The notes below the pieces were generated by a model. The model did no database searches. It worked only from the letters and a program-made list of their open reading frames with translations, and was not told where the DNA came from. Shown piece after piece: positions 11,532 to 30,905 of a stretch of DNA of 37,088 bases. Numbering within the stretch: position 1 is the stretch's first letter; each line of letters begins with the position of its first letter. A program made the position numbers and the translations under genes. Source of the DNA: Gelidibacter maritimus (GTDB taxonomy: Bacteria > Bacteroidota > Bacteroidia > Flavobacteriales > Flavobacteriaceae); NCBI RefSeq assembly GCF_014062315.1, contig NZ_JACGLT010000026.1, forward strand, positions 1-37,088, read 5' to 3'.

Positions 11532-11618
11532 TCCTCTTTGGATCAAATACTATAATGGAATAGGATAAATGATTAATTTCAATGGACATATTAATTTTTG
11601 ATTTTTAAATTAGAAAAC

Positions 11619-12182: not shown

Positions 12183-13139
12183 TTAATTTTTAAATAACTT
12201 ATAATAATGTGTAGCGGCAGCCAAATCTTCTAAAGCATGTCCAACAGATTTGAACAAAGTAATTTGTTCATCGTTACTTCTACCTGAATGGCCTTTAGCA
12301 GCCATTAAAAACAAATCTGCTTTAATATCTTGTTCTGCCAAAACTCCGGTGTTCAATGGAATGACGATATCACCACTTTCTTTTAGCCCGCCTTCATAAG
12401 TATCTACAAACACTTCAGATTTTTTTATGGCATCATCATCAGCTTCTCGCATATCCGGACGATAAGCGCCAACCAAATCGACATGTTGACCAGGTCTTAA
12501 GAACTTGCCCAAAACAAGTGGTGTTGATGAAAGAGTTGCGGCAGAAATGATATCCACTTCGCTAATTTTATCTTCAATATTTCTTATCGCCATTATTTCG
12601 AAATTCTCCTCACTTAAGTCCGCACAAATTGCCTTTGCTTTGTCATAATTTCTGCCCCAAACATAAACTCGTTCTATGGGCCTTACACTTGCGTGGGCCT
12701 TAATAAGATTTGGAGATAGGGCTCCAGTTCCAATCACTAATAATGATTTTGAGTCTTTTCTACTTAGATATTTTGAGGCTAAGGCTGACGCTGCTGCAGT
12801 ACGTTTTACAGTTAAACTTTTAGCTTCTATGATTGCTTTGATAGAGCCTTTTAAGGCATCTAAATAAATATAAATGGCTTGAATGGCAGGTAAATCAAAC
12901 TTTCCATTCGCTGGACTAACCGTCGCTATTTTCACACCAGCTTGCTTTCCTGGATTCCAAGCTGGCATCAATAATAGCGTGGATTCCATACCAACTTCTG
13001 GATTAGGAAAATCATGATGATGTCGCATGGGCACCAAGAGTTCTTTGTTCGCAAACATTTTTTCTAAGTCTGCAATTAAATTTGAGAAATTTGTGTTATT
13101 CTCAACAAAATCTGCATCAATTTGGACGATATTTTTCAT
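12183..13139 (-). CDS. Ornithine cyclodeaminase/mu-crystallin family; likely Delta1-pyrroline-2-carboxylate reductase
   Basis: Family members bind NAD(P)H and either cyclise ornithine or reduce cyclic imines. Among hydroxyproline genes, reduction of Delta1-pyrroline-2-carboxylate to L-proline is the likely job. The 318 residues show MPAWNPGKQAGVKIATVSP (Lys70 region), KRTAAASALASKYL (Arg113), the nucleotide-binding GTGALSP (137-143) and VDLVGAYRPDMRE (Asp221), all typical of the family. It is the last gene of the minus-strand locus. A strong terminator (13262-13310) separates it from the dapA-like gene, so it probably has its own promoter. No trans-3-hydroxyproline dehydratase is present, so its imine may come from D-proline oxidation. 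The exact substrate is inferred. Confidence 0.85.
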   Translation of the reverse strand: MKNIVQIDADFVENNTNFSNLIADLEKMFANKELLVPMRHHHDFPNPEVGMESTLLLMPAWNPGKQAGVKIATVSPANGKFDLPAIQAIYIYLDALKGSIKAIIEAKSLTVKRTAAASALASKYLSRKDSKSLLVIGTGALSPNLIKAHASVRPIERVYVWGRNYDKAKAICADLSEENFEIMAIRNIEDKISEVDIISAATLSSTPLVLGKFLRPGQHVDLVGAYRPDMREADDDAIKKSEVFVDTYEGGLKESGDIVIPLNTGVLAEQDIKADLFLMAAKGHSGRSNDEQITLFKSVGHALEDLAAATHYYKLFKN

Positions 13140-13261
13140 AAAGGTTATGGATATACGGTTATTATTGTTCGTCTCTTATGAATTGAATAAATCAATTTAT
13201 TTTGAACGCCCACCTTGGGCTTTGACGATTATCATAATATAACATTCAAAACTCACAAAAC

Positions 13262-13310
13262 AAAAAAGTAAAGAAATCCCATTAACTAAAGACAATTAGC
13301 TAATGAGATT
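13262..13310 (-). terminator. Strong intrinsic terminator after the dapA-like gene
   Basis: Arms at 13275-13289 and 13296-13310 form a 15-bp stem with a 6-base loop, and the minus strand continues into a T-rich run (13261-13274). In the minus-strand RNA two of the pairs are G-U. On the other strand they would be A-C mismatches. That fixes the direction and shows it serves the dapA-like gene ending at 13367. Confidence 0.8.
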
Positions 13311-13366
13311 CTTGAATTCATTCCATTTAATTATAAATGATAATTATTAATTGAAGGATAGGCCTC

Positions 13367-14281
13367 CTAAAGATTTTTGTAATCTGGTAAAGTAGGCCTG
13401 GTTTTTAGACTATCCTCAATTGTTTTTATAGCATATTTTCTTTCGTCTCCAATCAGCGGTAAACGTGGTGGCCGCACATTTTCAGTACCAAGACCGGTAT
13501 AAACCTCAGCCAATTTTATGTTTTGTACCAATTCTGGAACAATATCCAATTCGAACAATGGCATAAACCATCTATGAATGTCTAATGCTTCTTTAATTCG
13601 TCCGGCTTTAATCAATTCGTACATAGCAACAGTTTCTTCAGGAAATGCACAGACCAAACCTGCTACCCAACCGTCAGCGCCAAGAACCATACTTTCAAAA
13701 GCAATGGTATCTACGCCTGTCATAATTTTTAATCGATCCCCAAAACGATTTTTTATCCTGGTGATATTCATGGTATTTCGCGTCGATTCTTTTACCGCTT
13801 CAATATTGTCATGTTTTAATAACTCATCAAACATTTTATGGGTGATTTCTATTTTATAGTCCACAGGGTTATTGTACACCATTATTGGTAACGATGTGTT
13901 TTTGGCAACGGCGTTAAAAAACTCCATGGTCTCTCTATCCGTAGATTTATAGCGCATTGGAGGCAACATCATAAGCCCTGATGCACCATCTTCTTCTGCC
14001 ATGTTTGCTGCCTTAACCGCCGCTCTGGTAGATTGTTCTGCCAGTGTTATCATAACAGGCACTCTTCCTTTAACCATGTCAACTGTGGTTTTTGTCAAAC
14101 TACGTTTCTCAGCTTCTGACAAGGTACTTGCTTCACCTAAAGTACCTCCCAAAACGACACCGTGTACACCAGCATCGAGTTGTGCTTTAAGATTGGTTTC
14201 AAACATTGCAAAATCTAAAGTATCATCATCATTAAATTTTGTTGTGACTGCTGGCATGATGCCTTCCCATTTTACACTCAT
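13367..14281 (-). CDS. DapA/NAL-family lyase; likely 1-pyrroline-4-hydroxy-2-carboxylate deaminase
   Basis: The third step of bacterial 4-hydroxyproline breakdown: removal of ammonia from 1-pyrroline-4-hydroxy-2-carboxylate to give 2,5-dioxovalerate. The 304-residue protein is a TIM-barrel class I lyase with the GGTLGE loop (45-50), Tyr136 in MVYNNP and the Schiff-base Lys164 in EAVKEST. These are the DapA-family catalytic residues, and the length is normal. The family also includes dihydrodipicolinate synthase and other keto-acid aldolases. The deaminase call rests on the adjacent epimerase, dehydrogenase and semialdehyde dehydrogenase genes. It is divergent from the araC gene at 14528, with a likely promoter at 14316-14323, and is closed by its own terminator. 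Confidence 0.87.
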   Translation of the reverse strand: MSVKWEGIMPAVTTKFNDDDTLDFAMFETNLKAQLDAGVHGVVLGGTLGEASTLSEAEKRSLTKTTVDMVKGRVPVMITLAEQSTRAAVKAANMAEEDGASGLMMLPPMRYKSTDRETMEFFNAVAKNTSLPIMVYNNPVDYKIEITHKMFDELLKHDNIEAVKESTRNTMNITRIKNRFGDRLKIMTGVDTIAFESMVLGADGWVAGLVCAFPEETVAMYELIKAGRIKEALDIHRWFMPLFELDIVPELVQNIKLAEVYTGLGTENVRPPRLPLIGDERKYAIKTIEDSLKTRPTLPDYKNL

Positions 14282-14315
14282 AGATTTAAATTTTATTGTT
14301 GTTAATATTATTCAC

Positions 14316-14323
14316 CAAAGTTA
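14316..14323 (-). promoter_or_regulatory. Candidate -7 element of the dapA-like gene
   Basis: On the minus strand it reads TAACTTTG, fitting TAnnTTTG, 35 bases upstream of the ATG at 14281. Position and fit are good. No clear -33 TTG is seen at the normal distance, which suits an activator-dependent promoter next to an araC gene. Confidence 0.45.
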
Positions 14324-14368
14324 ATTAAGAAAGGCATGACGTAATGGTTCTTATTTATCAAGTGTTAA

Positions 14369-14392
14369 TACTATATTGTCCTACCTATAGTA
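14369..14392. promoter_or_regulatory. Inverted repeat in the araC/dapA-like divergent region
   Basis: TACTATA (14369-14375) and TATAGTA (14386-14392) are perfect 7-bp arms with a 10-base spacer, centred in the 246-base gap between the divergent genes. The left arm overlaps ACTATATTG, close to the ACTATATTA repeats before the tautomerase gene. It is a candidate binding site for the adjacent AraC protein. Confidence 0.35.
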
Positions 14393-14527
14393 AATAATGT
14401 TTTTTTTGAGTAATATTAGAGTCTATTTTCAACCAAATCTTGTAAACAACAGTTTCGCCACAAAATTAGAATAAGTCCAATTCGCGTAAATCAGCTTTTT
14501 CAAAATTCACCTATAAGATCAACCGAT

Positions 14528-15373
14528 ATGAGAGTACTGCCTTTTAAAATACCAAAACCGGAACATGACGCTCTGGTATATCAGGAAGATATAGGCGTGT
14601 CATTCTATGATCAATTACACCAACATGAAGAAATCCAGGTGAGCTATATTATTGAAGGTGAAGGCAAGTTAATTGTTGGAGACACCATCAATTTCTATAA
14701 GCCCAATGATATTTTGGTCATTGGTAGCTATCTACCACATCTTCTTAAAAGTGATACCAGCGTTTATAAGACATCGAAGATGTTAAGTCTGTTCTTTACA
14801 AAAGATTCCTTTGGGGAAAAGTTTTTTGAACTGGAAGAGACTAAGAGTTTACAGCCGTTGTTTACAAGAGCCACCCATGGACTGAAGGTCATTTCAGATA
14901 AAGAAGATATGGCCAAATTATTCCTGAAATTAAGATCGTCGAACAAGTTGGATCAGTTTTTAATTTTGTTGGAATTGTTAAAAATGGCATCTACCTGTGA
15001 ATACAAAAGCTTATCCTCTTTTATATATGATAAACAATACACGGACTATGAAGGCAATCGAATGCGTAATATCTTTGAATTCACAATGAGCCACTTTAAC
15101 ACCAATATTACTTTAGAAGCGGTTTCTGAGAAGGCAAACATGACCAAAAATGCCTTCTGTAAATACTTTAAAAAACGGACAAATAAAACCTATTTTCAAT
15201 TTTTAACCGAATTACGAGTAGAACATGCTACTAAGCTATTGCTCTCAAAAAACAAATTTACCATTGCCGAAATCGCTTATGAATCTGGATTTAAAAACAT
15301 ATCCAATTTTAATAGACAGTTTAAAGAGATTAAGAAAAACACGCCTTCCGATTTCAGAAAAGAAAGAACATGA
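14528..15373 (+). CDS. AraC-family transcriptional regulator (first paralogue)
   Basis: A 281-residue regulator: an N-terminal cupin-like sensing domain (about 1-150, with HQHEEIQVSYIIEGEGKLIV and NDILVIGSYLPHLLKS), then a C-terminal AraC DNA-binding domain. The two helix-turn-helix units are seen as VSEKANMTKNAFCKYFKK and IAEIAYESGFKNISNFNRQF, with NKTYFQFL between. It is divergent from the dapA-like gene and sits inside the hydroxyproline locus, so it most likely senses hydroxyproline or an intermediate and activates those genes. A collinear 281-residue paralogue lies at 30906-31751, with roughly half of residues identical by eye. The start is firm because both paralogues begin MR(V/I)LPFKIPK. 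Confidence 0.92.
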   Translation: MRVLPFKIPKPEHDALVYQEDIGVSFYDQLHQHEEIQVSYIIEGEGKLIVGDTINFYKPNDILVIGSYLPHLLKSDTSVYKTSKMLSLFFTKDSFGEKFFELEETKSLQPLFTRATHGLKVISDKEDMAKLFLKLRSSNKLDQFLILLELLKMASTCEYKSLSSFIYDKQYTDYEGNRMRNIFEFTMSHFNTNITLEAVSEKANMTKNAFCKYFKKRTNKTYFQFLTELRVEHATKLLLSKNKFTIAEIAYESGFKNISNFNRQFKEIKKNTPSDFRKERT

Positions 15374-15552
15374 TTTTTTATATCAAAGCAGGTATGGCGA
15401 GAAGAACCCAAGTCTTTCCGAAACAAGCACTATATAAAGTGTCAAAATTCACGAATGATTGGTTAAAAATTCCTCCAAAAATTGAGCAGCATCCGAAAGA
15501 GCCAAACTATAAAACTTATCACAGCTTCACTAGTTGGCTCAATAAACACTGA
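15370..15552 (+). CDS. Small ORF overlapping the araC stop (ATGA), unknown
   Basis: A 60-codon frame whose ATG shares bases with the araC TGA, a layout that allows translational coupling. I recognise no domain. The sequence is basic and rich in Lys and Tyr, with DWLKIPPKIEQHPKEPNYK and SWLNKH at the end. After the TGA the same frame stays open and protein-like (PEFYKAYFQSEYSDVV) for another 30 codons, so it may be the relic of a longer gene cut by a stop. It is convergent with the M24 peptidase gene. Treat as doubtful. Confidence 0.3.
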   Translation: MIFYIKAGMARRTQVFPKQALYKVSKFTNDWLKIPPKIEQHPKEPNYKTYHSFTSWLNKH

Positions 15553-15636
15553 CCTGAATTTTACAAAGCCTATTTTCAATCGGAATATTCAGATGTCGTC
15601 TTCACGAATAAGGTATTGAGAAATAAAGACCTAAAA

Positions 15637-16851
15637 CTATGCTCCAAATGGGTCGTCGATAGACAACATTGGCTCAGTAAACCATTTTGGCCCTTGTTCG
15701 GTCATATAAATATGATCCTCAAGGCGAATTCCAAATTGATCTGGCACACAAATCATGGGTTCGATACTAAAACACATTCCTGGCTCTATTAGAGTCTCTT
15801 CATTTCTTATGACATAAGGCCATTCGTGAATATCCAGACCAATTCCATGCCCCGTACGATGTGGCAATCCGGGCAATTCGTAATCCGGTCCAAGGCCATG
15901 CGCTTCTATCACTACCCGCGATGCATCATCAATGGAAGAAAAAGTATTTCCTAATCGAGCGGCATTAAAAGCGCCCAATTGGGTTTCTTTTTCTATATTC
16001 CAAATACGTCTTTGTAAGTCCTTTATTGTTCCGAGCACATAGGTTCGGGTAATGTCCGAGAGGTACCCATGCAATTCACAACCGGTATCTATCAGAACTA
16101 CTTCGCCGTCTTCCAAATCCTTTGGGGCTTTCACACCATGCGGAAATGAGGTATCCACACCAAACAACACAATGCAAAAATAAGACCCTGAAGAAACTCC
16201 ATAACGCTTATGCGCTTCATGAATGAAGTCAGTGACTTCTTTTGCGCTGATGCCAACATGCAAAATCCTTGCTACTGCTTTTTGTACTTCTAAAGTAATA
16301 TTCATGGCATGCTGAATGATCGCGATTTCAGCTTCGGATTTCACCATTCTACATCCCGCAGTGACCGGTTTAGAGTTAACAAGTTCAAATTTCGGATTTG
16401 CTTTTGCGATACCATCGCTAATAAAAAACGATGTGCTTTCATCAATTAGAACAATGCCGTCATCCACACCATTTTCAGAGCATGCTTGAGCCAACAATTG
16501 ATATGGGCTTTCGTGTTCTTCCCAACAATGAATTGGTCCTTCAACCACCATAAAATCTAAAATTGTTCCTTTTTCGAAGTTTGGCGCGATATAGTGCAAG
16601 CTTCCATCAGGAAACAATAAAGCACCAACCATACGTTCGCTTGCATTCCATCTGGTCCCGGTAAAATAGTACAGATTTGTCCCTGCATCTAAATACATGA
16701 CTTGCCCTTTTAGATCCTGCATTAATTTACAGGCTTTATCAATACGTGAATAAAACTCGCTTTTTTGTATTGGCTTCACTAAATGTGCATTAGGCGTGAT
16801 AGCATTTAATTCGGCTTCAATTGTACTACCGCCGATTCCTGTTGTTTTCAT
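15637..16851 (-). CDS. M24-family metallopeptidase, Xaa-Pro dipeptidase/aminopeptidase-like
   Basis: M24 'pita-bread' enzymes use two metal ions to cut the bond before proline, and here probably hydroxyproline, in the cytoplasm. The 404 residues comprise an N-terminal creatinase-like domain (about 30-165) and the catalytic domain. The metal ligands are all present: Asp255 (LIDTG), Asp266 (SDITRT), His335 (HRTGHGIG), Glu364 (SIEPM) and Glu378 (RLEDH), plus His238 in FPHGVKAP. No signal peptide is seen. It is the distal gene of the minus-strand operon, but an IS1595 element separates it from the dehydrogenase gene, and only 21 bases lie between the transposase stop and its start. Creatinase-type activity is the main alternative. 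Confidence 0.88.
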   Translation of the reverse strand: MKTTGIGGSTIEAELNAITPNAHLVKPIQKSEFYSRIDKACKLMQDLKGQVMYLDAGTNLYYFTGTRWNASERMVGALLFPDGSLHYIAPNFEKGTILDFMVVEGPIHCWEEHESPYQLLAQACSENGVDDGIVLIDESTSFFISDGIAKANPKFELVNSKPVTAGCRMVKSEAEIAIIQHAMNITLEVQKAVARILHVGISAKEVTDFIHEAHKRYGVSSGSYFCIVLFGVDTSFPHGVKAPKDLEDGEVVLIDTGCELHGYLSDITRTYVLGTIKDLQRRIWNIEKETQLGAFNAARLGNTFSSIDDASRVVIEAHGLGPDYELPGLPHRTGHGIGLDIHEWPYVIRNEETLIEPGMCFSIEPMICVPDQFGIRLEDHIYMTEQGPKWFTEPMLSIDDPFGA

Positions 16852-16872
16852 AAATTATTAAATTTTACCGAT

Positions 16873-17775
16873 TTACACACTTAGTTTCTGTTTTATTTGA
16901 TTTTGATAGATTGGTTTACTTTCGACCATTCTTTCAATTGTTTTATGAAAAATACTAGTTTTATTTTGTGACCGATTTATTCTAAAGCAAAATTCATCAA
17001 AGTAAGCTTGAATATGCCATTTACTCACATGGGTTGGTATAGCCCTAAGCCATGATTTAACCTGCATAATTATAATGTGTAATTGTTTAAAGTTTGCTCC
17101 GTTATTGCTATAAACTTGCTTGATGTTATAAGCTTCTTTTAAAGGTTCATATCCTCTCCACTTATCAGTGATTATTTTAGCCGATACACTTATAGGTTCT
17201 TCAAATATTGGTGTTAATGACTTTGCGGAATAATCGTCAATAGACTTGATATATACTCTTTTTACTTTGTTGTTGTCTGTTAATTCTACTGCGATTACGG
17301 CCTTTTTATTTTTTGTGTCATAACTTCTTCCTTGTTTTCCTTCTTCTTTTCCACCTACCGTAAATTCATCAACATGAATTAGCTTCTCTAAAGGGTACTC
17401 TTGACTGCTCTTCATGGCCGTACGCACTTTTTGCATAAAGAACCATGCTGTTCCTTGGCGTATGCTAAAACGTTTGCCCATTTGAATACTTGAAATACTT
17501 TTGCTAATGGTACTCATCTCAAAAGCAACACAAAATGCTTTTTGCAAGCCAAACTTAACCTTGTGAAAAAGCGTATTTGCTGTTGCGCTTTCTACATGAT
17601 GGCAGGAGTAACAATGGTAATTGTAATCGGCCTTTTCACATCCTTTTGTAGAACCACATTTACTGCAGGTAAAACCGTCTTGCCATTTTATTTTTGCTAG
17701 ATATGCTTTACAAGCTTCATCATTTGGTAGTTCTTTTATAAAGTTTAATATATCTTGTCCTTCAAATTGTTCCAT
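16873..17775 (-). CDS. IS1595-family transposase
   Basis: A full-length 300-residue transposase of the ISXO2/IS1595 type. An N-terminal zinc ribbon is seen as C37-x2-C40 and C55-x2-C58 (FTCSKCGS, CYSC). The catalytic residues are Asp136 (HVDEFTVGGKEEG), Asp204 (IITDKWRGYE) and Glu261 in the FDEFCFRINR block. No frameshift or stop is seen, so it may be active. It sits inside the hydroxyproline operon in the same direction as its neighbours, between the FAD dehydrogenase and M24 genes. Weakly matching ends lie near 16878-16890 (CACTTAGTTTCTG) and 17804-17816 (GGAAACTAAATGA). I could not confirm a target duplication. Confidence 0.92.
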   Translation of the reverse strand: MEQFEGQDILNFIKELPNDEACKAYLAKIKWQDGFTCSKCGSTKGCEKADYNYHCYSCHHVESATANTLFHKVKFGLQKAFCVAFEMSTISKSISSIQMGKRFSIRQGTAWFFMQKVRTAMKSSQEYPLEKLIHVDEFTVGGKEEGKQGRSYDTKNKKAVIAVELTDNNKVKRVYIKSIDDYSAKSLTPIFEEPISVSAKIITDKWRGYEPLKEAYNIKQVYSNNGANFKQLHIIIMQVKSWLRAIPTHVSKWHIQAYFDEFCFRINRSQNKTSIFHKTIERMVESKPIYQNQIKQKLSV

Positions 17776-17830
17776 ATCTCTTATTTTAAAGGATAATAGA
17801 TAAGGAAACTAAATGACTAACTCAATAATT

Positions 17831-19078
17831 TTAAAAGCTTCTGTCTGGCTGGAACGGATCAAGATTGAGGGTGGTCTTTTTACCTGAAATCACCTCAGAA
17901 ACCAACTTACCGGTAGCAGGCCCCAGCCCCCAGCCCATCATCGCATGTCCTGTTGCAATGGTCAAATTTACGCACTTTTTCGACCTTCCTATATAAGGTA
18001 AACCGTCAGGTGATACTGGACGCAACCCTGACTGTGCATTGTTTTTATCTTCCTGATCTAACGTGATTTCAGGATAGTACTTGGTTACGGCATGGGCAAT
18101 AGCATCAACTCTTGCTCTATTGATATCTTGATTGATCCCCGCTATTTCCATAGTCCCAGCAAAGCGCGTGAATCCATGCATTGGCGTTACCGCAACTTTA
18201 GCTTCGGACAGTATGGCCGGAATGGATATCCCCGTACCTTGATCAGTATTAATACGATACCCTTTTCCTGCCTGTAATAGCAATTGCAAAGATAGTTTTT
18301 TACTTAAGAATGAACTCCACGAACCCGCCGCAAGAACAAATTCGTCGGCTTGATGATTTTTTTTATTTGTTGTAATGGAGGTGATAGATCCATTTACCAT
18401 TTCAATATCATTCACTTTTTCATTGGTAAAAAACGCCACCCCAGATCCTTTTAAATAGGTTTTCATATCGCTCATAAACTCTTGAGGCGTCATGTGCGAG
18501 TCACATTTATAATATGTTGCTCCTTTCACATTTAACTTGACGTTAGGCTGAAGTTTTCTCAAATCGTCCAGACTGATTTCTGAAGCTTCCAAACCAATTT
18601 GCCGTGCCAAATCTGCCACTATAATTTCTTCTTCAAGCATTTTTTCAGATTGACACAACATCAATAAGCCTTTATTCTCCAACTGAAACTGAAAACCTTC
18701 ATCTTGCTTTATACTACTATATAACTCTTGGCTCAACATAGTAATGTCTCTAATTATCGGGACGGATTTGTTCACATGTTTTGCCGTACAGGATTTATTG
18801 AACGCCAAGGTCCATTTCATAAAATCAACATCCAACCGTGGCTTGATATACAAAGGACTGGATTTATTAAACATCCATCTAATTCCTTGTCTCATCACTC
18901 CCGGAGCTGATAAGGGAATAAAATGGCTGGGCGATAAAAAGCCTGCATTAACGTAAGAGGCGCCCATATCTAAATTGGATTGATCTATAATAGATACTTT
19001 ATGTCCTTCCTTGTGAAGATAATATGCAGAACATAAACCGATAATTCCGCCGCCAATAATAATGACTTCCTTGTTCAT
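17831..19078 (-). CDS. FAD-dependent D-amino-acid dehydrogenase (DadA type); likely cis-4-hydroxy-D-proline dehydrogenase
   Basis: The second step of hydroxyproline catabolism: oxidation of cis-4-hydroxy-D-proline to 1-pyrroline-4-hydroxy-2-carboxylate, passing electrons to the respiratory chain. The 415 residues start with the dinucleotide fold IIIGGGIIGLCSAYYLHKEG (G9, G10, G11, G14). The DAO-family features follow: MGASYVNAG, the AAGSWS motif and the C-terminal SGLRPVSPDGLPYIGRS and ATGHAMMGWGLGPATG that wrap the flavin. It lies directly downstream of the epimerase (74-base gap) and is followed by the IS1595 insertion 55 bases after its stop. The substrate is set by context. D-proline or other D-amino acids are possible. 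Confidence 0.9.
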   Translation of the reverse strand: MNKEVIIIGGGIIGLCSAYYLHKEGHKVSIIDQSNLDMGASYVNAGFLSPSHFIPLSAPGVMRQGIRWMFNKSSPLYIKPRLDVDFMKWTLAFNKSCTAKHVNKSVPIIRDITMLSQELYSSIKQDEGFQFQLENKGLLMLCQSEKMLEEEIIVADLARQIGLEASEISLDDLRKLQPNVKLNVKGATYYKCDSHMTPQEFMSDMKTYLKGSGVAFFTNEKVNDIEMVNGSITSITTNKKNHQADEFVLAAGSWSSFLSKKLSLQLLLQAGKGYRINTDQGTGISIPAILSEAKVAVTPMHGFTRFAGTMEIAGINQDINRARVDAIAHAVTKYYPEITLDQEDKNNAQSGLRPVSPDGLPYIGRSKKCVNLTIATGHAMMGWGLGPATGKLVSEVISGKKTTLNLDPFQPDRSF

Positions 19079-19152
19079 TTATTCTAAATTAAATTCCCAA
19101 ATTGGCTTTGCTCCCAAAAGAATATACATACTTTTTCATCCTATCTGAATTT

Positions 19153-20163
19153 TCAAATGACCTGAAATCCGAACGCGTACGGATCATCGTCATCATCAAT
19201 AATAATAGTATTGTACCCATACACTTTTGCCCAACCTTGTACACTCGGAATAATGGCCGATCTTCCGTTTAAAGTCGTCTCTTCAACAACGCTGCCTATA
19301 AATTTACTACCTATAAAGCTCTCGTGGATAAACTCCTCCCCTATTTTCAGAATGCCTTTTGCATAACGTTGTGCCATAACAGCGGAGGTTCCTGTGCCGC
19401 AAGGACTTCTATCAATGGCTTTATCGCCATAAAATACTGCATTTCTTGCTGTCGATGTTGGATCTGTTGGTTTTCCGGTCCATAGAATATGTGATACATC
19501 TCTAATGGAATCATTTTCCGGATGGATAAACATGTTTGGATATTTTCGGTTGATTGCATCTCTCAGTATCTGAGAATATTGAATCAACTTACCCGCGGTA
19601 AAATTTTCTACACCTGAAAAATTCTGCTGTGGATCTATGATGGCATAATAGTTTCCGCCATAAGACACATCAAAAGTCAGTTCGCCCAATTCAGGACAAT
19701 CAATGCTTAAACCTTCGGCAGCCAAATAACTCTTAACGTTGGTTAAACGTACCCAATCCACTTTATTTCCAGTGGTCTTATAATCAATTTCCACCAAGCC
19801 CGCAGGCGCCTCCATCCTTATCTTTCCTGGAACCTTTGGCGTTATCAAACCTTCTTCAATAGCTATGGTTATGGTACCAATCGTACCATGACCGCACATG
19901 GGCAAGCAGCCAGAGGTCTCAATAAATAAAATGGCAAAATCATTTTCGGGATCATGTGGCGGATAGAGGATACTCCCACTCATTATATCGTGTCCACGAG
20001 GTTCAAACATCAAGCCTCTCCGAATCCAATCGAATTCTTTTAAAAAATGCAATCGTTTTTGACTCATCGTTTCTCCAACCAAATGAGGGCCGCCTTCTTT
20101 AATAACTCGTACTGGATTTCCGCAGGTATGTGCGTCAATACAAACAAATGTACTTCTACTCAT
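19153..20163 (-). CDS. Proline racemase family; likely 4-hydroxyproline 2-epimerase
   Basis: Starts hydroxyproline breakdown by inverting C2 of trans-4-hydroxy-L-proline to cis-4-hydroxy-D-proline through a two-thiol proton shuttle. Both catalytic cysteines are present: Cys90 in PMCGHGT and Cys255 in DRSPCGTGTSA. The trans-3-hydroxyproline dehydratases of this family replace the first Cys by Ser or Thr, so the Cys/Cys pair favours the epimerase. The 336 residues are normal length, and the opening (IDAHTCGNPVRV) is typical. It lies between the semialdehyde dehydrogenase and FAD dehydrogenase genes on the same strand. Proline racemase itself is less likely given the neighbours. Confidence 0.92.
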   Translation of the reverse strand: MSRSTFVCIDAHTCGNPVRVIKEGGPHLVGETMSQKRLHFLKEFDWIRRGLMFEPRGHDIMSGSILYPPHDPENDFAILFIETSGCLPMCGHGTIGTITIAIEEGLITPKVPGKIRMEAPAGLVEIDYKTTGNKVDWVRLTNVKSYLAAEGLSIDCPELGELTFDVSYGGNYYAIIDPQQNFSGVENFTAGKLIQYSQILRDAINRKYPNMFIHPENDSIRDVSHILWTGKPTDPTSTARNAVFYGDKAIDRSPCGTGTSAVMAQRYAKGILKIGEEFIHESFIGSKFIGSVVEETTLNGRSAIIPSVQGWAKVYGYNTIIIDDDDDPYAFGFQVI

Positions 20164-20266
20164 CGCTTTATTAACTTATTTAGGGTAAATCTTATCATTC
20201 TTTTAAATAGTTTCGGTAACCACAAATCATAATTATAATCTATCAAAACCGCATTCCTTTAAACCA

Positions 20267-21793
20267 CTATCGTTTTAAAGCACAAGGTAATAACGCATTA
20301 GGAAAAGACTGATAACTCACAGGTCGCACCCATCTTTTTATGGAATTTGTTCCAACGGCGGTAAATCTTGAATCGGTAGATGCCGGATAGGGACCACCGT
20401 GTTGCATTGATGGGCAAACCTCAACCCCTGTTGGAACCCCATTAAAAATGATTCGCCCTACTCTATTTTCAAGCGCATCAATAACATCGTGAAGATTGGG
20501 ATGATCTTCTTTTTCGGCAATAATAGTGCCCGTTAATTGCCCGTCCAATCCATTTATGATGTTGATTAACTCCTCCTGATCCTTAGCTTTAACCACTAAT
20601 GCAAATGGACCAAAGGCTTCAAGGTGCAGCTTAGGATTTGCCAAAAATTCCTTTCCTGAAACACTTGTGATCTGCGAAGGCCCCTCGTTAGCATCAATTG
20701 CTTTTTCAACTTTCCCAACAACCTCTGTTCCTGCTTGAGAAGACACCATATTTACATTATCAACAAATGCTTTCTTAATATCTGGATGCAGCATATACTG
20801 TGGAGCGATAGCTATTGTTTTTTTGGCTAAATCTTTTTTGAATTGATCTGTCCCATCACCTTCAACAGTCAATAACAAACCTGGTTTTGTACAAAATTGT
20901 CCTGCTCCCATTGTTATAGAGCCAGCAAAAGCTGTCGCAATATTATCCGATCTATTCTCTATAGCTTTTTGGGTAATAATCACAGGATTGATACTTCCCA
21001 TCTCCGCAAAAACGGGAATAGGCTCTTTACGTTGAGAGGCAATATCAAACAGTGCTCGACCGCCAGAAATACTTCCTGTAAAGCCAACTGCTTTCACCTT
21101 ATCGTGCTTTACTAATTTAACACCTACAGTTCTTCCGCGACCCATAATATTTGAAAAGACCCCATTAGGCATTCCAGTTCTTTCCGCCGCTTTAATAATA
21201 GCCGAAGCCACCAACTCTGCTGTTCCTGAATGCATGGCATGTGCCTTAACAATAACTGGACACCCGGCAGCTAAAGCACTAGCAGTATCTCCACCTGCAG
21301 TCGAAAAAGCCAAAGGAAAATTACTTGCAGCAAAAACCACCACTGGACCTAATGGTATTAAGGTACGTCTTAAATCATCTTTTGGTATGGGCGTCCTTTC
21401 TGGCATGGCTTCGTCAATGGTGTTCTCCCTCCAATCCTCATTGGATACTAAATCTGCGAAAGAACGCAATTGGAATACGGTCCTTCCCCGTTCACCAATC
21501 GCTCTGGCTTCAGGCAGTCCAGATTCTGAAGTATAAGAATCTAATAATTCTTGATCCAAGGCTAAAATTTCATCGGCAATAGCATTTAAAAACTCTGCTC
21601 TTTTCACCCCGGCAACTTTCCGATAGATTTTAAAAGCACTCCAAGCCAATTCAACGGCCTCATCAACTTCATCAGAAGTAGCTTCATAAAATGCTGTTTG
21701 ATTTTGAATATTAAGTCTTGGGTTTATAGTTTTATGTGTTTTATCACCACTCGCTTTTAACGTGTTGCCTATATAATTTTTTCCTGTTATCAT
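20267..21793 (-). CDS. Aldehyde dehydrogenase; likely 2,5-dioxovalerate (alpha-ketoglutarate semialdehyde) dehydrogenase
   Basis: Oxidises 2,5-dioxovalerate to 2-oxoglutarate, the last step that feeds hydroxyproline carbon into the TCA cycle. The 508 residues carry the ALDH residues Asn158 (ASNFPLAF), Glu264 (PVFAEMGSINP), nucleophile Cys301 (GAGQFCTKPG) and FTGSISGGRALFD. The PVFAEMGS and GQFCTKPG forms are typical of the KGSADH branch. It is first of the minus-strand operon. A TATTTTTG promoter element (21846-21853) and a leader hairpin (21818-21839) lie just upstream. The epimerase starts about 100 bases after its stop. Sugar-acid pathways also use such enzymes, but the neighbours here point to hydroxyproline. 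Confidence 0.92.
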   Translation of the reverse strand: MITGKNYIGNTLKASGDKTHKTINPRLNIQNQTAFYEATSDEVDEAVELAWSAFKIYRKVAGVKRAEFLNAIADEILALDQELLDSYTSESGLPEARAIGERGRTVFQLRSFADLVSNEDWRENTIDEAMPERTPIPKDDLRRTLIPLGPVVVFAASNFPLAFSTAGGDTASALAAGCPVIVKAHAMHSGTAELVASAIIKAAERTGMPNGVFSNIMGRGRTVGVKLVKHDKVKAVGFTGSISGGRALFDIASQRKEPIPVFAEMGSINPVIITQKAIENRSDNIATAFAGSITMGAGQFCTKPGLLLTVEGDGTDQFKKDLAKKTIAIAPQYMLHPDIKKAFVDNVNMVSSQAGTEVVGKVEKAIDANEGPSQITSVSGKEFLANPKLHLEAFGPFALVVKAKDQEELINIINGLDGQLTGTIIAEKEDHPNLHDVIDALENRVGRIIFNGVPTGVEVCPSMQHGGPYPASTDSRFTAVGTNSIKRWVRPVSYQSFPNALLPCALKR

Positions 21794-21817
21794 TTGTCGT
21801 TAATTTTAATTTGTTTA

Positions 21818-21839
21818 AGGTTTATTTATTTGTAAACCT
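21818..21839 (-). promoter_or_regulatory. Hairpin/palindrome at the presumed transcription start of the hydroxyproline operon
   Basis: AGGTTTA (21818-21824) and TAAACCT (21833-21839) are perfect 7-bp arms with an 8-base spacer. They lie 6 bases downstream of the candidate -7 element, so this is either an operator over the start site or a 5'-end RNA hairpin. Confidence 0.35.
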
Positions 21840-21845
21840 CAAATA

Positions 21846-21853
21846 CAAAAATA
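21846..21853 (-). promoter_or_regulatory. Candidate -7 element of the hydroxyproline operon
   Basis: The minus strand reads TATTTTTG, fitting TAnnTTTG, 53 bases upstream of the aldehyde dehydrogenase ATG. A -33 TTG is not evident, compatible with AraC-dependent activation. Confidence 0.45.
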
Positions 21854-22590
21854 TAATTACCCATAGAGTGATTACTTTAAATATATCTAAATCCTATTAA
21901 TTGACTTCTCTTACTAATATATTCCCACAAAACCGATAACAATATTTTGAATCCATAAATTTAGATCGAACATACATATTATAATAATAGATCATTATCC
22001 ATAACCAATACTATATAATCTAAATTTAAAAGATTATTAAGTTAATTGAATAGTGTCCATTTAGTAATAAACCACTATAAAAATTCACTCGCAAATAAGA
22101 AAACAATAAGAACTTCTCGTAAAAGTCTGGACCTGACAACCATTTAACGAAATCTATCTAATTCAAACAGCGTAAAATATAAACAAACGACTTTCTACCT
22201 TTCAACAAATGAAGATCCTTTCCAAAACTCATATAGATAGAATGACCTATTAAATCTACTCGATCGAAAAGGATAAAATCTGATCAAGCTAAACATTTAT
22301 GAAAAAGAAAAACAAATGAGATTAAGTAGCAGTATTCTTTAATTTTCCAATAACCATATGTTCATTATCTACAAACTCAATCCTCTTGAAAACCTCAATA
22401 ATAAATATAAGATAAGAATACACAGAGAGCATTCGCTCTTTCCCTAAGGCTAACTACGTAAATTAAAATGGCTGTATTAGGCAGCTATGGACAAAAACAA
22501 ATCAAGAAAATTAGTAATTAATCCCTTATGCAACATCGAAGTCAGGTTTTCAAGACATCTTGAAGGATTCATCAAAATCTCTGAATGGTG

Positions 22591-22628
22591 AAAATAAAAA
22601 AACCGGAACCTAATTAAAAGTTCCGGTT
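22591..22628 (-). terminator. Strong intrinsic terminator of the second susCD operon
   Basis: AACCGGAAC (22601-22609) and GTTCCGGTT (22620-22628) form a perfect 9-bp stem with a 10-base loop. On the minus strand a T-rich run (22591-22600) follows. It lies 23 bases after the susD stop, so susCD and the hydroxyproline operon are separate transcripts. Confidence 0.85.
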
Positions 22629-22650
22629 AAACGAGATAACTAACTCAAAA

Positions 22651-24108
22651 TTAAAACTTATCCCAGAATATTTTTGTGGTCATTAAGTCGCCTCCTATGG
22701 CATTTGACGCGGCTTCATAATTGTCACCATTCAATGTTTTATCGAAAATTGAGTAAATATTACGGACAGGCACTTTACCTTTTGCTTCTTCTACAGCAGT
22801 TACAGGGGCTTTCAATACCGGAAAATCCAATCGCCTGTATTCTGTCCAAGCTTCGAAGCCACGATTAAAATATGCAATCCATAGCTGGTTTGCTATTTTT
22901 TCTTTAGAGGTTCCAGGAGCTGTAGAAAACGCCACATCACTCCTATTTAGATATATCTGAGTATCAGCGTCTGCCACACCCCAAAAACTCATACTTGCTT
23001 CAATACCTTTTGTATAATATTCTTCTGGAGTCCCTCCAACTTCAAAACCTCTATTGGCTGCATCTGCCAATAGAAAGCAAGTTTCAGTATAATCAAATAA
23101 TACACCTGGATTTGATTTTTCTTTCAATCTTTCTCCCATATTGGAATAATCGCCATAAGAAACTTGCTGCGCATATGCAGCTCCAACATATTCCCCTCCT
23201 TTTTTTGACTCTGGATTAAAGAAGACATCTCTTCTCGGATCTTCATTAGCATTTAAAATGTTTACAAAAAATGCTGTTGGAACAATTTGACTTTCGTTCA
23301 CCAAGTTATCGTACAAAGGATTCATATCTGTAATTGAAGTAAAATACTGAAACAACGCAGTTTCACTTTCATTACTCATTACCCCTGAATTAACAGCGCT
23401 TTCAACCATAGTTCTAGATTTTTCGAACTCAACATCGGCAAGATGCAACCCCATTTTTAGCTTAACACTATTCGCTAATGTTCTCCATTTGGCAACATTA
23501 CCTGCATAAACTAAATCAGCTTGACCAAAACTTTCGTTATTTACATCCATATCGGAAATAGCAGTATTTAAACGATCGGCTAAATCAAAATAAATTGTTT
23601 TCGCATCATCATATTTAGGATAAGGATATGCATCAATATCCAACGCTTCAGTGTAAACAACGTTTCCAAACAAATCCACCAGGGCTTGATAGGCCATTAT
23701 TATTTGAACTTCAAGAATTGCAATATTATTTTTCTTAACTGCAACCTCAACTGAACCTAAAGCCTCCTTATCCTGCACCATTTTTTGTGCATTAATTAAA
23801 TCTTGCAAAACATCACGATATAAAAGAATTGAATGTGAATTTCCTAGATTTCTTTTTACCTGATTATAATTTACCTCATCCGTATAGGTTGTGGTTGTCC
23901 AATGTTGGGCATATCCTCTAAAATTATTATCATTTACCGATGCGTTTGTTAAAAAATAAGCATAATTAACTTGTGCACTTGTCATTAACGCGCTTGGCAA
24001 AGTTGTGGTATATGATTTTTCATCTTCGTTTAAAGTATCCAAGCTATCACATGAGGCCATTGAAAGTATAATCGCTCCTGCAAAAAATATTGTTTTTAAA
24101 TTTTTCAT
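22651..24108 (-). CDS. SusD-like lipoprotein (SusD-like_2 type, second pair)
   Basis: Substrate-binding surface lipoprotein of the second SusCD transporter. The 485 residues start with a lipoprotein signal whose lipobox ends at Cys20 (ILSMASC), followed by DSLDTLNEDE. Features of the SusD-like_2 branch are seen: QHWTTTTYTDEVNY, AYQALVDLFGNVVYTEAL, AKWRTLANSVKLKMGLHLAD, ETCFLLADAANRGF and the C-terminal QLWIAYFNRGFEAWTEYRRLDFP. This branch is often found with peptide rather than glycan loci. The downstream hydroxyproline operon makes hydroxyproline-containing peptides a reasonable cargo. The gene starts 13 bases after the susC stop. Confidence 0.93.
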   Translation of the reverse strand: MKNLKTIFFAGAIILSMASCDSLDTLNEDEKSYTTTLPSALMTSAQVNYAYFLTNASVNDNNFRGYAQHWTTTTYTDEVNYNQVKRNLGNSHSILLYRDVLQDLINAQKMVQDKEALGSVEVAVKKNNIAILEVQIIMAYQALVDLFGNVVYTEALDIDAYPYPKYDDAKTIYFDLADRLNTAISDMDVNNESFGQADLVYAGNVAKWRTLANSVKLKMGLHLADVEFEKSRTMVESAVNSGVMSNESETALFQYFTSITDMNPLYDNLVNESQIVPTAFFVNILNANEDPRRDVFFNPESKKGGEYVGAAYAQQVSYGDYSNMGERLKEKSNPGVLFDYTETCFLLADAANRGFEVGGTPEEYYTKGIEASMSFWGVADADTQIYLNRSDVAFSTAPGTSKEKIANQLWIAYFNRGFEAWTEYRRLDFPVLKAPVTAVEEAKGKVPVRNIYSIFDKTLNGDNYEAASNAIGGDLMTTKIFWDKF

Positions 24109-24121
24109 CTTTATATTGTAT

Positions 24122-27100
24122 TTAGAATTGAACTTTCATATTAAAACTAAATTCTTTTGACGTTGGCAAAACACCTGTTTGGAAACCCTGCATATTTCCT
24201 GAAGAACTTCCTGCTTCTGGATCTGCATAGGGCAAGTTTTTACTAATTATCCATAAATTGCTACCGTTTATCGCAAAAACAATATTATTTATAAATGTAC
24301 TTGCTAACAATCTTGAAGGAAGTCTATAGCTTAATCCAACTTCCCGGAGTTTTACATATGAAGCATCATAAACATATTGTTGCTGTGGCATTGAATTGTA
24401 AAAATAATATCCATTATCTCCTTCAACACTTACTACAATATCATTCTTAGTCCCATCTTGTTTTACTCCATTAAGTAAAACCCCTCCACCATCTGCAATT
24501 GGATCTCTCTGTGGATTTCCCAAGTGATTGTTTGAAACTGTGCTCTGATAAATACCTGCGGTATGCCCGAAGCTCTGATCTAAAGAATAGACATCTCCAC
24601 CTTTTTTAACATCAATTAAAAAGTTAAATGAAAGACTTTTATAAGTGAATGTGTTGTTAAATCCACCTATCCAATCTGGATTAACATCACCGATTGTAGC
24701 TCCAGCCGTATGTTGATAATTCCCTCTAGAATTGATCACTTTTTCACCATCTAAATAAGTAAATCCTGAACCTATTAATTGACCAACCGGTTTTCCTACC
24801 TCAGCAACATATCCAACACCTTGAAAAGAGCCAAGCGAGATTCTATCTGCACCATCTAATGAAATTACTTCATTTTTATTTGTAGACCAGTTGATTGTAG
24901 TTTCCCATGTAAAGTTTTGAGTTTTTATCGGAATTGCAATTACAGACAATTCATAACCCTGGTTTTGAACATCCCCACCATTTATCCAAGCATTCGTATA
25001 ACCCGTTTGTGTTGGTGTCTGAATTGATAAAATTTGATTTGTTGTATTTGTTCTGTAGTATGATAAGTCTAAACCTAATCTGTTTCTAAAAAATTTAACT
25101 TCAATACCTGCTTCAACACCTTTAGTTAACTCACTTTTTAAATCAGTATTACTTTTACTGTTTTCTGTAGAAAAACGAATTCCATCAGGTCCAAAATTGT
25201 TGTTTTTAGAATATCTTGAGTTGGTAACTGCAAAAGGAGCATCGTTTCCGGTTTCAGCATAATTTAAACGTAGTTTACCAAAAGATAACCAATTTGCTTG
25301 GATATGATTACTGAAAATATAAGTTCCCGTAATCGATGGATATGAATACGTATTATTATCAGTTGGTAAAGTTGATGATTGATCTACACGGTATGTACCT
25401 TCTAAGAAATAGGTTTCAAAGAAATTAAAACTAGCATTAGCATAAATACTATTTGTACCTAATGTTACTTGTGATTCGCTTGGACTATTTATTCCGTCAA
25501 TTGAGTTATTCAAGGCATAAATTCCTGGCACAACCAACCCTCCACTTGTCGCTGCAAATATTGAATTACTCATCGAGCGTCTTGAATTCACTCCGAGCAT
25601 TCCATTAAATTTAATTTCTTGTTTTATATCTGCTTTAAAGTTTAAAATTAAATCCAAATTGACTTCTCTAAACGTTTTATCATATCTCGTATACTGACCT
25701 TTAGCGTTTCCAGTTCTTTTAGAACCTACGGCAATGCGCTCTTCTTGAAGTTGGTGGTAATAATCTACTGCGCCTTTTCCAGTAATATCAAACCAACTAG
25801 CAATCTCAGTATTTAAAGCGAGGTTTCCAAAAAAACGATCCCTGTCTAAAGTATTGAAATTATTCTCGCGTTGAAAATAAGGATTATCATGAAATTGTAC
25901 TGATACATCATCAGGCCCTCCAATACTCCAAGTCGTATTTTGTCCTGTCAAATTATATGCGTTTTCTAAATCTTTGAAATCAACACTTGATGAATACCAT
26001 TGTCTAACACTACTCAAATAGTTGTTACCGCCATCACCATAACCCGTTTCATTCATACCTTTTGCATTTGCTTTTAAATAGTTTGAAGAAACCGAGATTT
26101 TAGTCTTTTCACTTAAGTTATAACTTACCGATAAATTAAAATTGTCTTTACGACTATTACTATTTGGTAATACACCCTGTTCTTGGTTGTAATTCGTATA
26201 TCCAAATCTCAAATCACCATTTTCATTCGAACCGGAAATAGCAATACTATTTGTGTATGTTAAACTGTTTTGATAAAAACTATTTGGGTTGTTTTTTGGT
26301 GCTGTCCAAGGAGTTGCCTTACCGTAAGTAGGTAATTCAGGATAAAACGAGTTCCAATTGTAAACTAATAAACTTGAATCAAATTTTGGCCCCCAAGCTG
26401 CATCATCTGTTGCAGCATAAGGATAAAGTCCATTTCCTAAATCAACATTGCCGTAAAAGTCACCATATCCACCTCCATACAGATTTTGATATTCGGGCAA
26501 CGTGTTTTTATCAACAACACCAATGTTAATTCCTGAGCTGAAACTAACACCTAAACCACCTTTTGTTTTACTTCCCTTTTTTAAAGTAACTAAAATCACA
26601 CCGTTGGAAGCTCTTGAACCATACAGTGCAGTTGCCGCCGCACCTTTTAAAACGTTAATCGTTTCGATATCGTCTGGGTTAATATCCGAAGCGGCATTTC
26701 CGTAGTCATATCCGCCAACATTCCCACCACTTTTTTGGCTGGCTGTATTTGTATTATCATTGTTTAAAGGAATACCATCAACAACCCACAGAGCTTGATT
26801 GTTACCCGTGAGGGAAGTTGTTCCACGAATAACTACATTGGTAGATCCACCTATATTATTATTACGTCGAATCTCAACACCTGCAACTTTACCGGAGATA
26901 TTGTTGGCAACATTTCCTGTGTTCACTTTTGTAAGATCCTCCCCTTTCACTTCTTGAGTTGCGTAACCAAGTGATTTTCTTTCTCTTTTAACTCCCAAAG
27001 CCGTTATTACAACTTCATTCAATTTTTGAGAGTCTTCTTTCAAAATTACATTTACCACACTTGTTGACGCCGGAAGTTCTTGAGTTGCCATGCCGATATA

Positions 27101-27328
27101 ACTAAATACCATAACGTTGTTTGTTGACGCCTTTAGTGAGTATTTCCCATCAAAGTCGGTTTGAGTTCCTTCTTTGGTTCCTTTGACTAATACGCTCACA
27201 CCTGGCAAGGGTACTCCTAAATTATCTGTTACCGTTCCGGTCACTATTCGCTCCTGTGCGAATGTTAATTGCGTTACAAACACAAAAAGCATTATCGCTA
27301 ATTCATTTTTAAATAACTTAATTTTCAT
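24122..27328 (-). CDS. SusC/RagA-family TonB-dependent outer-membrane transporter (second pair)
   Basis: Outer-membrane importer for the second pair. The 1068 residues show a signal peptide ending at FVTQLTFAQ, a carboxypeptidase-like beta domain (GTVTDNLGVPLPGVSVLVKG, FDGKYSL, FSYIGM), a TonB-box region (LNEVVITALGVKRERKSLGY), a plug (VIRGTTSLTGNNQALWVVDG, LKGAAATALYGSRASNGVI) and a barrel ending in Phe (FSFNMKVQF). The ALGVKRERKSLGYA stretch is characteristic of the SusC subset paired with SusD-like_2 proteins. I found no clear TAnnTTTG promoter in the 250 bases upstream. It lies on the same strand as, and directly upstream of, the hydroxyproline operon, so RagA-like peptide import is inferred. 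Confidence 0.95.
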   Translation of the reverse strand: MKIKLFKNELAIMLFVFVTQLTFAQERIVTGTVTDNLGVPLPGVSVLVKGTKEGTQTDFDGKYSLKASTNNVMVFSYIGMATQELPASTSVVNVILKEDSQKLNEVVITALGVKRERKSLGYATQEVKGEDLTKVNTGNVANNISGKVAGVEIRRNNNIGGSTNVVIRGTTSLTGNNQALWVVDGIPLNNDNTNTASQKSGGNVGGYDYGNAASDINPDDIETINVLKGAAATALYGSRASNGVILVTLKKGSKTKGGLGVSFSSGINIGVVDKNTLPEYQNLYGGGYGDFYGNVDLGNGLYPYAATDDAAWGPKFDSSLLVYNWNSFYPELPTYGKATPWTAPKNNPNSFYQNSLTYTNSIAISGSNENGDLRFGYTNYNQEQGVLPNSNSRKDNFNLSVSYNLSEKTKISVSSNYLKANAKGMNETGYGDGGNNYLSSVRQWYSSSVDFKDLENAYNLTGQNTTWSIGGPDDVSVQFHDNPYFQRENNFNTLDRDRFFGNLALNTEIASWFDITGKGAVDYYHQLQEERIAVGSKRTGNAKGQYTRYDKTFREVNLDLILNFKADIKQEIKFNGMLGVNSRRSMSNSIFAATSGGLVVPGIYALNNSIDGINSPSESQVTLGTNSIYANASFNFFETYFLEGTYRVDQSSTLPTDNNTYSYPSITGTYIFSNHIQANWLSFGKLRLNYAETGNDAPFAVTNSRYSKNNNFGPDGIRFSTENSKSNTDLKSELTKGVEAGIEVKFFRNRLGLDLSYYRTNTTNQILSIQTPTQTGYTNAWINGGDVQNQGYELSVIAIPIKTQNFTWETTINWSTNKNEVISLDGADRISLGSFQGVGYVAEVGKPVGQLIGSGFTYLDGEKVINSRGNYQHTAGATIGDVNPDWIGGFNNTFTYKSLSFNFLIDVKKGGDVYSLDQSFGHTAGIYQSTVSNNHLGNPQRDPIADGGGVLLNGVKQDGTKNDIVVSVEGDNGYYFYNSMPQQQYVYDASYVKLREVGLSYRLPSRLLASTFINNIVFAINGSNLWIISKNLPYADPEAGSSSGNMQGFQTGVLPTSKEFSFNMKVQF

Positions 27329-30854: not shown

Positions 30855-30905
30855 CGTCCCGATTTTAATGGGACACTAGTGATATTTATATTTAGCTAAG
30901 TTGTC

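Follow-up and report, generated by a model that had tools for sequence, protein, structure and literature searches.

A SusCD pair beside hydroxyproline catabolic genes in Gelidibacter maritimus: a probable locus for the utilisation of collagen and gelatin peptides

SusCD systems are usually interpreted in terms of glycans, and for many pairs no ligand has been assigned. The pair described here lies on the minus strand of a 37,088-nucleotide stretch of Gelidibacter maritimus DNA (the window), which is the whole of contig C19 in a 4.7-Mb, 70-contig assembly with an estimated contamination of 2.33%. It shares its locus with (i) genes for a putative route from trans-4-hydroxy-L-proline to 2-oxoglutarate, (ii) two AraC-family regulator genes, AraC1 and AraC2, and (iii) the gene of a secreted M43 metalloprotease (Table 1). 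A sequence-only reading had placed a SusCD-linked hydroxyproline (Hyp) or collagen-peptide utilisation locus at 12183-27328. Its genes are all present where it had put them, with open frames (list of open reading frames (ORFs), Pfam, NCBIfam), those for the M24 peptidase, the imine reductase and an AraC protein included. It had overlooked the IS1595 insertion sequence between the FAD dehydrogenase and M24 genes, and its span was too short: the locus runs on to AraC2 and the M43 protease.

The susC gene is followed by susD after 13 bp, the arrangement of SusCD/RagAB-type pairs. Among solved structures, the best relative of SusC is by far BT2264 (E 6e-115), with RagA a much weaker match (1e-34); SusD resembles BT2263 weakly (E 1e-16), and other SusD homologues match it better. 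We know of no link of BT2263-2264 or RagAB to hydroxyproline genes. The SusCD pair of BT2264 is described as an oligopeptide importer in the accessible text of PMC10132118, and peptide import by the window pair is predicted from this nearest relative together with the context. Pfam finds no carbohydrate-active enzyme (CAZyme) among the ten proteins of 12183-27328, and thus none that shares a unit with SusCD as in a polysaccharide utilisation locus (PUL). Among 14 terminator-like sites found, the intrinsic terminator after susD is the richest in G-C pairs, and a gap of 857 bp lies between susD and the aldehyde dehydrogenase (ALDH) gene; susCD is therefore probably a transcription unit of its own. 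A single operon from susCD through the pathway genes is left unsupported by this terminator and gap, which tell against one operon from susC to M24.

The catabolic genes had been said to match every step of the epimerase route. For the epimerase this stands, with a score above the model cutoff and the Cys/Cys pair that, according to the available text of PMC4364671, separates epimerases and racemases from Cys/Thr dehydratases. The FAD-dependent dehydrogenase (DAO), the DapA-type protein and the ALDH belong to the right families, and their roles are assigned from context because their NCBIfam scores fall below the curated cutoffs; the top matches of the ALDH, also below cutoff, are 2,5-dioxovalerate/alpha-ketoglutarate semialdehyde (KGSA) dehydrogenases. 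Relatives of these three proteins accompany the epimerase in most of 120 epimerase neighbourhoods, which were chosen regardless of SusD, 80 from one match list and 40 from another, mostly from the tops of the lists and with many near contig ends omitted. A second copy of the catabolic genes lies on contig C56 of the same assembly (G000:C56:8593-17304, L003); it is free of insertion sequences and comprises ALDH, epimerase, DAO, M24, AraC, DapA and reductase genes with 90-95% protein identity to those of the window.

The M43 protease has 1139 residues and is 62-71% identical to the M43 proteins encoded beside susCD in Flavobacterium, which have 1279-1320 residues and a zinc motif starting at 230-237. 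It shows the hallmarks of a cytophagalysin: a cysteine switch in the prosegment, the zinc motif with E232 and the disulfide cysteines of the catalytic domain. The cytophagalysin CPL1 is 1282 residues long, with Q20 following the signal peptide, the C24 switch and E232 as catalytic base (PMC11674741). At the positions given in that paper, which stand in for the CPL1 sequence itself, the window protein agrees at 10 of 13: Q20, C24, E232, D251, Y286 and five of the six listed disulfide cysteines are shared, whereas A66, E67 and C434 differ. CPL1 purified from its host is reported to cleave collagens and gelatin, and neither 'locus' nor 'operon' appears in the text of the article as available (PMC11674741). 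By analogy, the window protease is predicted to be gelatinolytic or collagenolytic. No M9 collagenase is found by Pfam among the 20 window proteins scanned; the protease is of the M43 family instead. Two further M43 matches elsewhere in the assembly, at C22:8190-9491 and C25:1491-2792, have equal values (42% to the window M43) and may represent a single gene that is duplicated or divided between contig ends.

The linkage of importer, protease and catabolic genes recurs in Flavobacterium. Among 299 genomes of the family, a sample even by genus with few Flavobacterium genomes, the epimerase is present in 157, and 86 contain a SusD relative (E at most 1e-40); outside the window, the best SusD is 45% identical. 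This survey suggested a linkage unique to the window, an idea overturned by a SusD search of wider genome contigs. The latter returned 79 loci, 29 of which, all from Flavobacterium, have a SusD 69-78% and a SusC 73-81% identical to those of the window. Within 10 kb of SusD, all 29 hold an M43 gene and an M24 peptidase gene, and 28 hold an epimerase gene (at least 70% identical); only F. poyangense (L162) departs from this, with a second racemase-family gene and a reductase gene and no epimerase within 10 kb. Beyond M43 follow a reverse-strand M24 peptidase gene, a second racemase-family gene with a reductase gene in 7/29, and an S37 peptidase gene (27/29 by BLAST). Between DAO and susC lies an aminopeptidase P gene in L171 and a dipeptidyl peptidase IV (DPP-IV)-type peptidase gene in L154; in L252, which has M43 and no SusCD, a DPP-IV-type peptidase gene stands between DAO and M43. 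The query panel found an epimerase at only one of the 50 SusD loci below 60% identity, L192 from Segetibacter (SusD 39%), which combines DapA, epimerase, DAO, an amino-acid permease, AraC, SusCD and two S9 peptidases. In the 120 epimerase neighbourhoods, M43 occurs in four (L247, L251, L252, L257) and any SusC in 12 (two queries). Loci with SusD or M43 are all from Flavobacterium except L257, from another family of the order, where M43 immediately follows genes for DAO, DPP-IV and aminopeptidase P, and the end of a SusD gene (40%) is also present. Ten genomes assigned to Flavobacterium by identical epimerases belong to this set: six have SusCD or M43 in the fetched stretch and four have neither. 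In the Hyp operon of a congener (G244; L106, 7246-12242), genes for a DPP-IV-type peptidase and a DUF885 protein lie on the same strand; at a guess, the latter may be a peptidase for such peptides.

A second line of evidence comes from operator-like sites. AraC1 is divergent from dapA, and a relative of it lies close to dapA in most fetched relatives. Expectation maximisation on 66 AraC-dapA intergenic regions (those of the window, of C56 and of the 64 loci, out of 91 examined, that have a usable divergent AraC-dapA pair) yielded the motif GGATAATATAGTATTAAT, which exceeds 8 bits in 62 of the training regions. With a single-site score of at least 9.5, it is found in Flavobacterium before susC (22/29), M43 (22/29), S37 (26 of the 26 promoters tested) and the reverse-strand M24 gene (20/28, probably by way of the divergent region shared with S37). 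The control rates are 4.5% for shuffles (susC, M43), 3/46 for susC promoters of other clades and 0/29 each for the operon-internal susD and epimerase genes. The sites tend toward direct repeats 21 bp apart, and AraC-family proteins bind spaced direct repeats. A tandem score was defined after this spacing had been seen and is partly post hoc, which the control promoters guard against: in Flavobacterium every susC promoter (29/29) scores 7.3 or more and every M43 promoter (29/29) 8.9 or more, and none of 519 ORF promoters of 220 bp (L182-L230; L181, with 20.0 before its susC, is excluded) reaches 0.

In the window, six separate places score at least 0.8, all on the minus strand, compared with a mean of 0.19 places at 0 or above, and a maximum of 2, in 100 random copies of the window. 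A common operator-like site, as in an AraC regulon, precedes dapA, ALDH and susC, and a weak one precedes M43. The ALDH site lies just outside the 220-bp promoters of the control scan, its score coming from separate scans, and its C56 counterpart scores 15.5; the susC site aligns with the Flavobacterium susC promoters. The tandem scan found nothing before three other units of the window, namely the first SusC gene and the DUF218-GH92 unit of a separate locus and AraC2. We infer the pairing of AraC1 with the operators from its position divergent to dapA, and the shared sites would predict co-induction of the units as one AraC-type regulon. AraC2 was considered as a Flavobacterium regulator carried along with SusCD and rejected: it is 45-50% identical to Flavobacterium AraC proteins, no closer than AraC1 at 48-52% (seven loci scored: L246-L248, L250-L253).

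The operator also points to a gene elsewhere in the genome. Pfam turned up no inner-membrane carrier among the 20 window proteins scanned. Of six short half-site loci looked at outside C19 and C56, one, on contig C45, has a tandem site; it is the sole exact match to the half-site pattern in the genome, scores 19.7 and starts 95 bp before a gene for an EamA-family permease. Among the 13 of 100 genomes that have the permease, a tandem site of at least 12.5 precedes it in 3/6 genomes with an epimerase and 0/7 without, which are small numbers. The permease is a candidate for the inner-membrane carrier of the regulon.

Table 1. Genes, operators and mobile elements of the locus and its surroundings (window coordinates unless a contig is named; operators are tandem 21-bp sites with tandem scores)
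Feature	Coordinates	Strand	Evidence or remark
SusC/RagA-type TonB-dependent outer-membrane transporter	24122..27328	-	TIGR04056 601 bits, cutoff 368; TIGR04057 over cutoff
SusD-like_2 surface lipoprotein	22651..24108	-	PF12771 406 bits; lipobox MASC (by eye from translation)
Intrinsic terminator after susD	22601..22628	-	11-pair stem then T run; fold z -4.86
ALDH, probable KGSA dehydrogenase	20267..21793	-	PF00171; PDB best match 3v4c
trans-4-hydroxy-L-proline epimerase	19153..20163	-	PRK13971 571 bits, cutoff 376; Cys90/Cys254
FAD-dependent D-amino-acid (probable D-hydroxyproline) dehydrogenase (DAO)	17831..19078	-	PF01266; D-amino acid dehydrogenase models below cutoff
M24 prolidase-type peptidase	15637..16851	-	PF00557; best solved relative proline dipeptidase 4r60, 375 bits
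DapA-type protein (dapA), assigned to deaminase step by context	13367..14281	-	PF00701; below dapA cutoff
Delta1-pyrroline-2-carboxylate reductase type (OCD/mu-crystallin family)	12183..13139	-	PRK06141 384 bits, cutoff 322
Secreted M43 metalloprotease, cytophagalysin-like	32251..35670	-	PF05572, PF18962 (type IX secretion system (T9SS) sorting tail); HEFGHFLNLIH at 231
AraC1, proposed locus regulator, divergent from dapA	14528..15373	+	HTH_18
AraC2, second AraC-family regulator	30906..31751	+	54% identical to AraC1 (sequence comparison)
Operator before dapA	14343..14381	-	20.2; in motif training set
Operator before ALDH	21983..22021	-	13.3, 0/400 shuffles; starts 228 bp before ATG
Operator before susC	27382..27420	-	8.0, 0/400 shuffles; starts 92 bp before ATG
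Weak operator before M43	35725..35763	-	0.8, shuffle p 0.0025; starts 93 bp before ATG
Orphan operator	29479..29517	-	14.7; no ORF of at least 100 aa downstream before susC
Operator between transposase-like remnant and divergent tautomerase gene	11496..11534	-	24.6, window maximum
EamA-family permease	G000:C45:203917-204783 (L286, L294)		tandem operator upstream
IS1595 insertion between DAO and M24 genes	16868..17826	-	transposase 16873-17775; NF033547 153 bits, cutoff 75
Broken DUF4372-type transposase, between susC and AraC2	29691..30855	+	PF14294 in first frame, second frame after
Tautomerase	11619..12014	+	PF14552 56.7 bits, cutoff 28; adjoins operator 11496-11534

Related systems have been described in part. 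The 'oligopeptide' PUL TRV642_0198-0209 of F. collinsii has SusCD with a SusD of IPR041662 and peptidases of families S9, S37, M24 and M43, and was judged likely to serve oligopeptide uptake; hydroxyproline and the epimerase are absent from the main text of that paper, so the link to Hyp and the operators are not made there (PMC10132118). L152, from a second F. collinsii strain whose genes resemble this set by BLAST and in ORF size, is probably the same locus; the window differs from the F. collinsii PUL in gene order and in the lineage of its Hyp operon. A collagen cluster of Colwellia resembles the present locus in its secreted collagenase, TonB-dependent receptor, proline peptidases, 4-Hyp epimerase, D-Hyp dehydrogenase, deaminase and KGSA dehydrogenase, and differs in its M9 collagenase, major facilitator superfamily (MFS) transporter and secreted peptidyl-prolyl isomerase (PPIase), in its host, one of the Gammaproteobacteria, and in that no SusD is mentioned in the accessible text (PMC7883544). 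In F. psychrophilum, a collagenase and a SusCD pair fall in one expression cluster and are proposed, in the text as available, to act jointly in feeding on collagen peptides (PMC9723704). By the query panel, the F. psychrophilum SusCD found here (L183, SusD 47%), perhaps the pair of that paper, has no Hyp genes within 10 kb. Among the papers listed by searches, judged by title and start of abstract and with subscription journals largely outside their scope, none connects SusCD with both hydroxyproline catabolism and a common operator.

The kinship with BT2264 of a peptide-importing pair, and the prediction of no more than 'oligopeptide' for such loci in the accessible text of the F. collinsii paper (PMC10132118), would suit a general oligopeptide importer whose link to Hyp reflects general protein feeding without preference for collagen-type substrates. 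Such an importer is nonetheless unlikely, as its linkage and common operators with Hyp catabolism and proline-directed peptidases point to a substrate rich in Pro and Hyp.

The importer and the catabolic genes appear to have reached the window by different paths. The epimerase and SusCD trees were built by a quick method, with support from the SH-like approximate likelihood-ratio test (SH-aLRT) only. In the epimerase tree (151 sequences), the window and C56 are sisters (starred support 99), grouped with three genomes of other genera (starred 97) and apart from 28 SusCD-linked Flavobacterium epimerases. In the tree of SusC plus SusD (45 rows: the window and all but two of the 46 loci L152-L197), the window is nested within Flavobacterium sequences (forks with starred support 96 and 99), and in the M43 tree it stands next to most Flavobacterium sequences on a long branch without starred support. 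Because SusCD is nested in this way whereas the epimerase is sister to that of C56, importer and catabolic operon differ in history: the importer derives from, or recently shared an ancestor with, the Flavobacterium module, and the catabolic operon does not. Either the module joined an operon of the resident type or the operon was exchanged; either way the pairing came about anew, an argument for function. The differing histories, together with IS1595, the broken transposase of DUF4372 type and other transposase fragments within and near the locus, could also be taken to mean that a mobile SusCD/M43 module landed by a Hyp operon in an IS-rich region, a neighbourhood without functional meaning. 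A simple estimate puts a random landing within 10 kb of one place in 4.7 Mb at about 0.4% (0.8% for two copies), the pairing recurs in 28/29 Flavobacterium loci, and the units of the window share operators, which makes chance a very improbable explanation.

With the gene families, the catalytic residues of the epimerase and the M43 protease, the linkage, the trees and the operator-like sites as its foundation, the locus can be read as one for the utilisation of collagen or gelatin peptides, a reading to which we give a probability of roughly 0.7. The M43 protease, secreted by the T9SS, would cut gelatin or denatured collagen outside the cell, and SusCD would bind the resulting oligopeptides rich in Pro and Hyp and import them across the outer membrane. 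The EamA permease is the candidate for the inner-membrane step. Peptidases including the M24 prolidase would free Hyp and Pro; the epimerase would convert trans-4-L-Hyp to cis-4-D-Hyp, to be oxidised by the FAD enzyme, deaminated by the DapA enzyme and turned into 2-oxoglutarate by the ALDH, and the imine reductase would reduce pyrroline-2-carboxylate to proline. An AraC-type regulator (AraC1, perhaps AraC2) would bind the tandem 21-bp repeats before susC, M43, dapA and ALDH and switch these units jointly, presumably in the direction of induction. The earlier proposal of collagen-peptide use is largely borne out, by the Flavobacterium neighbourhood, the operators and the BT2264 relation; a single operon is not, nor does the second catabolic copy have a SusCD of this kind beside it.

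Several observations weigh against this reading. Among the matches listed in the 299 genomes, the nearest other SusD-epimerase pair is about 85 kb apart (by eye), and a close SusD accompanies the epimerase in only 4 of the 120 neighbourhoods (L246, L250, L251, L253), all from Flavobacterium, so that the conserved neighbourhood expected in relatives exists in that genus and is not general. One-site scoring missed the window susC (5.6) and M43 (1.0) promoters, and by tandem score too the M43 operator is weak. Whole-genome counts of half-sites with two mismatches show no excess (28+27 against 27+33 for a reversed-pattern control). At L181 (Flavobacterium sp. ZT3R18, 6796-11455; SusD 55%), SusCD has the operator and, by the query panel, no Hyp genes within 10 kb; it is a possible distant member of the regulon. 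Recombinant truncated CPL1 cut gelatin, and in the text as available its authors leave unsettled whether it is a true collagenase (PMC11674741).

A point on the substrate itself comes from L154 (F. johnsoniae CI04), where two adjacent MGH1-like glycosidase ORFs, perhaps one gene broken in two, lie at 17066-19055 between the reverse M24 and S37 genes. These ORFs, and the GH92 enzyme and SusCD locus near the Hyp genes in the window, would accord with a source other than animal collagen, such as plant or algal hydroxyproline-rich glycoproteins, and Hyp catabolism alone does not reveal the source. This alternative is nevertheless quite improbable, given that the M43 protease belongs to the cytophagalysin type, which acts on gelatin, and that the second racemase-family gene is present in 7 of the 29 Flavobacterium loci. 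In L171 the second protein has the Cys/Thr pair that marks trans-3-Hyp dehydratases, and its best model is trans-3-hydroxyproline dehydratase, with 367 bits against a cutoff of 540, which it does not reach; 3-Hyp is a typical component of collagen.

Further objections concern the window copy as such. IS1595 splits its catabolic operon: DNA homology to C56 ends at 16867 and restarts at 17827, and C56 has 13 bp between DAO and M24 at this place. No second copy of IS1595 was found in the assembly, where the only match is one of 44 bp at 84%. A stretch without ORFs of at least 100 aa separates susC from the broken transposase that lies before AraC2. The C56 copy lacks a SusCD of the window's kind, a SusCD of a different family lying about 1.5 kb past its reductase end, and C19 might be foreign to the assembly in view of the estimated contamination. 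These features weaken the reading for the window copy, which is partly damaged and may be a damaged duplicate. That it is a decaying or foreign duplicate (a paralogue, a recent transfer or a contaminating contig), no longer a working unit, is somewhat unlikely, and would be compatible with collagen-peptide use by the Flavobacterium loci; the named frames are open, the catalytic residues are present in the two proteins checked, the epimerase and the M43 protease, and the dapA, ALDH and susC operators are retained.

Beyond the window, the data would fit a collagen regulon of Bacteroidota, in which an AraC protein and its 21-bp operator would join a gelatinase, a SusCD for Hyp peptides, proline peptidases, Hyp catabolism and an unlinked EamA permease, and in which a SusCD-M43 module would move between genera, with its operators, into a recipient's Hyp operon bearing the same operator. 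For this wider proposal the chances seem about even. The link to Hyp catabolism, the gelatinase-type protease and the common operator would provide one subclass of SusCD with a concrete, testable ligand, namely peptides rich in Pro and Hyp, and with candidates for the regulator and the inner-membrane carrier. If so, this signature could serve to recognise in genomes the ability of Bacteroidota to feed on collagen, and the nutritional kit for collagen would resemble the polysaccharide kits of flavobacteria.

Outside the core of the locus, a plus-strand SusCD locus at 1264-9586, which also encodes a DUF218 protein and an enzyme of family GH92 (7511-9586), is separate from the Hyp genes and would be an ordinary glycan-type PUL by its families; no tandem operator precedes its SusC or DUF218 gene. 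Between susC and the broken transposase, the DNA at 28580-28720 resembles, by eye, a fragment of an Fe/Mn superoxide dismutase gene. The tautomerase gene is a possible member of the regulon; as a constant member of the locus it was rejected, tblastn at E 1e-5 having found no relative of it in the searched loci. Beside the operator next to it, a remnant of a transposase gene is visible by eye at 10300-11230, near which a regulated gene may have been lost.

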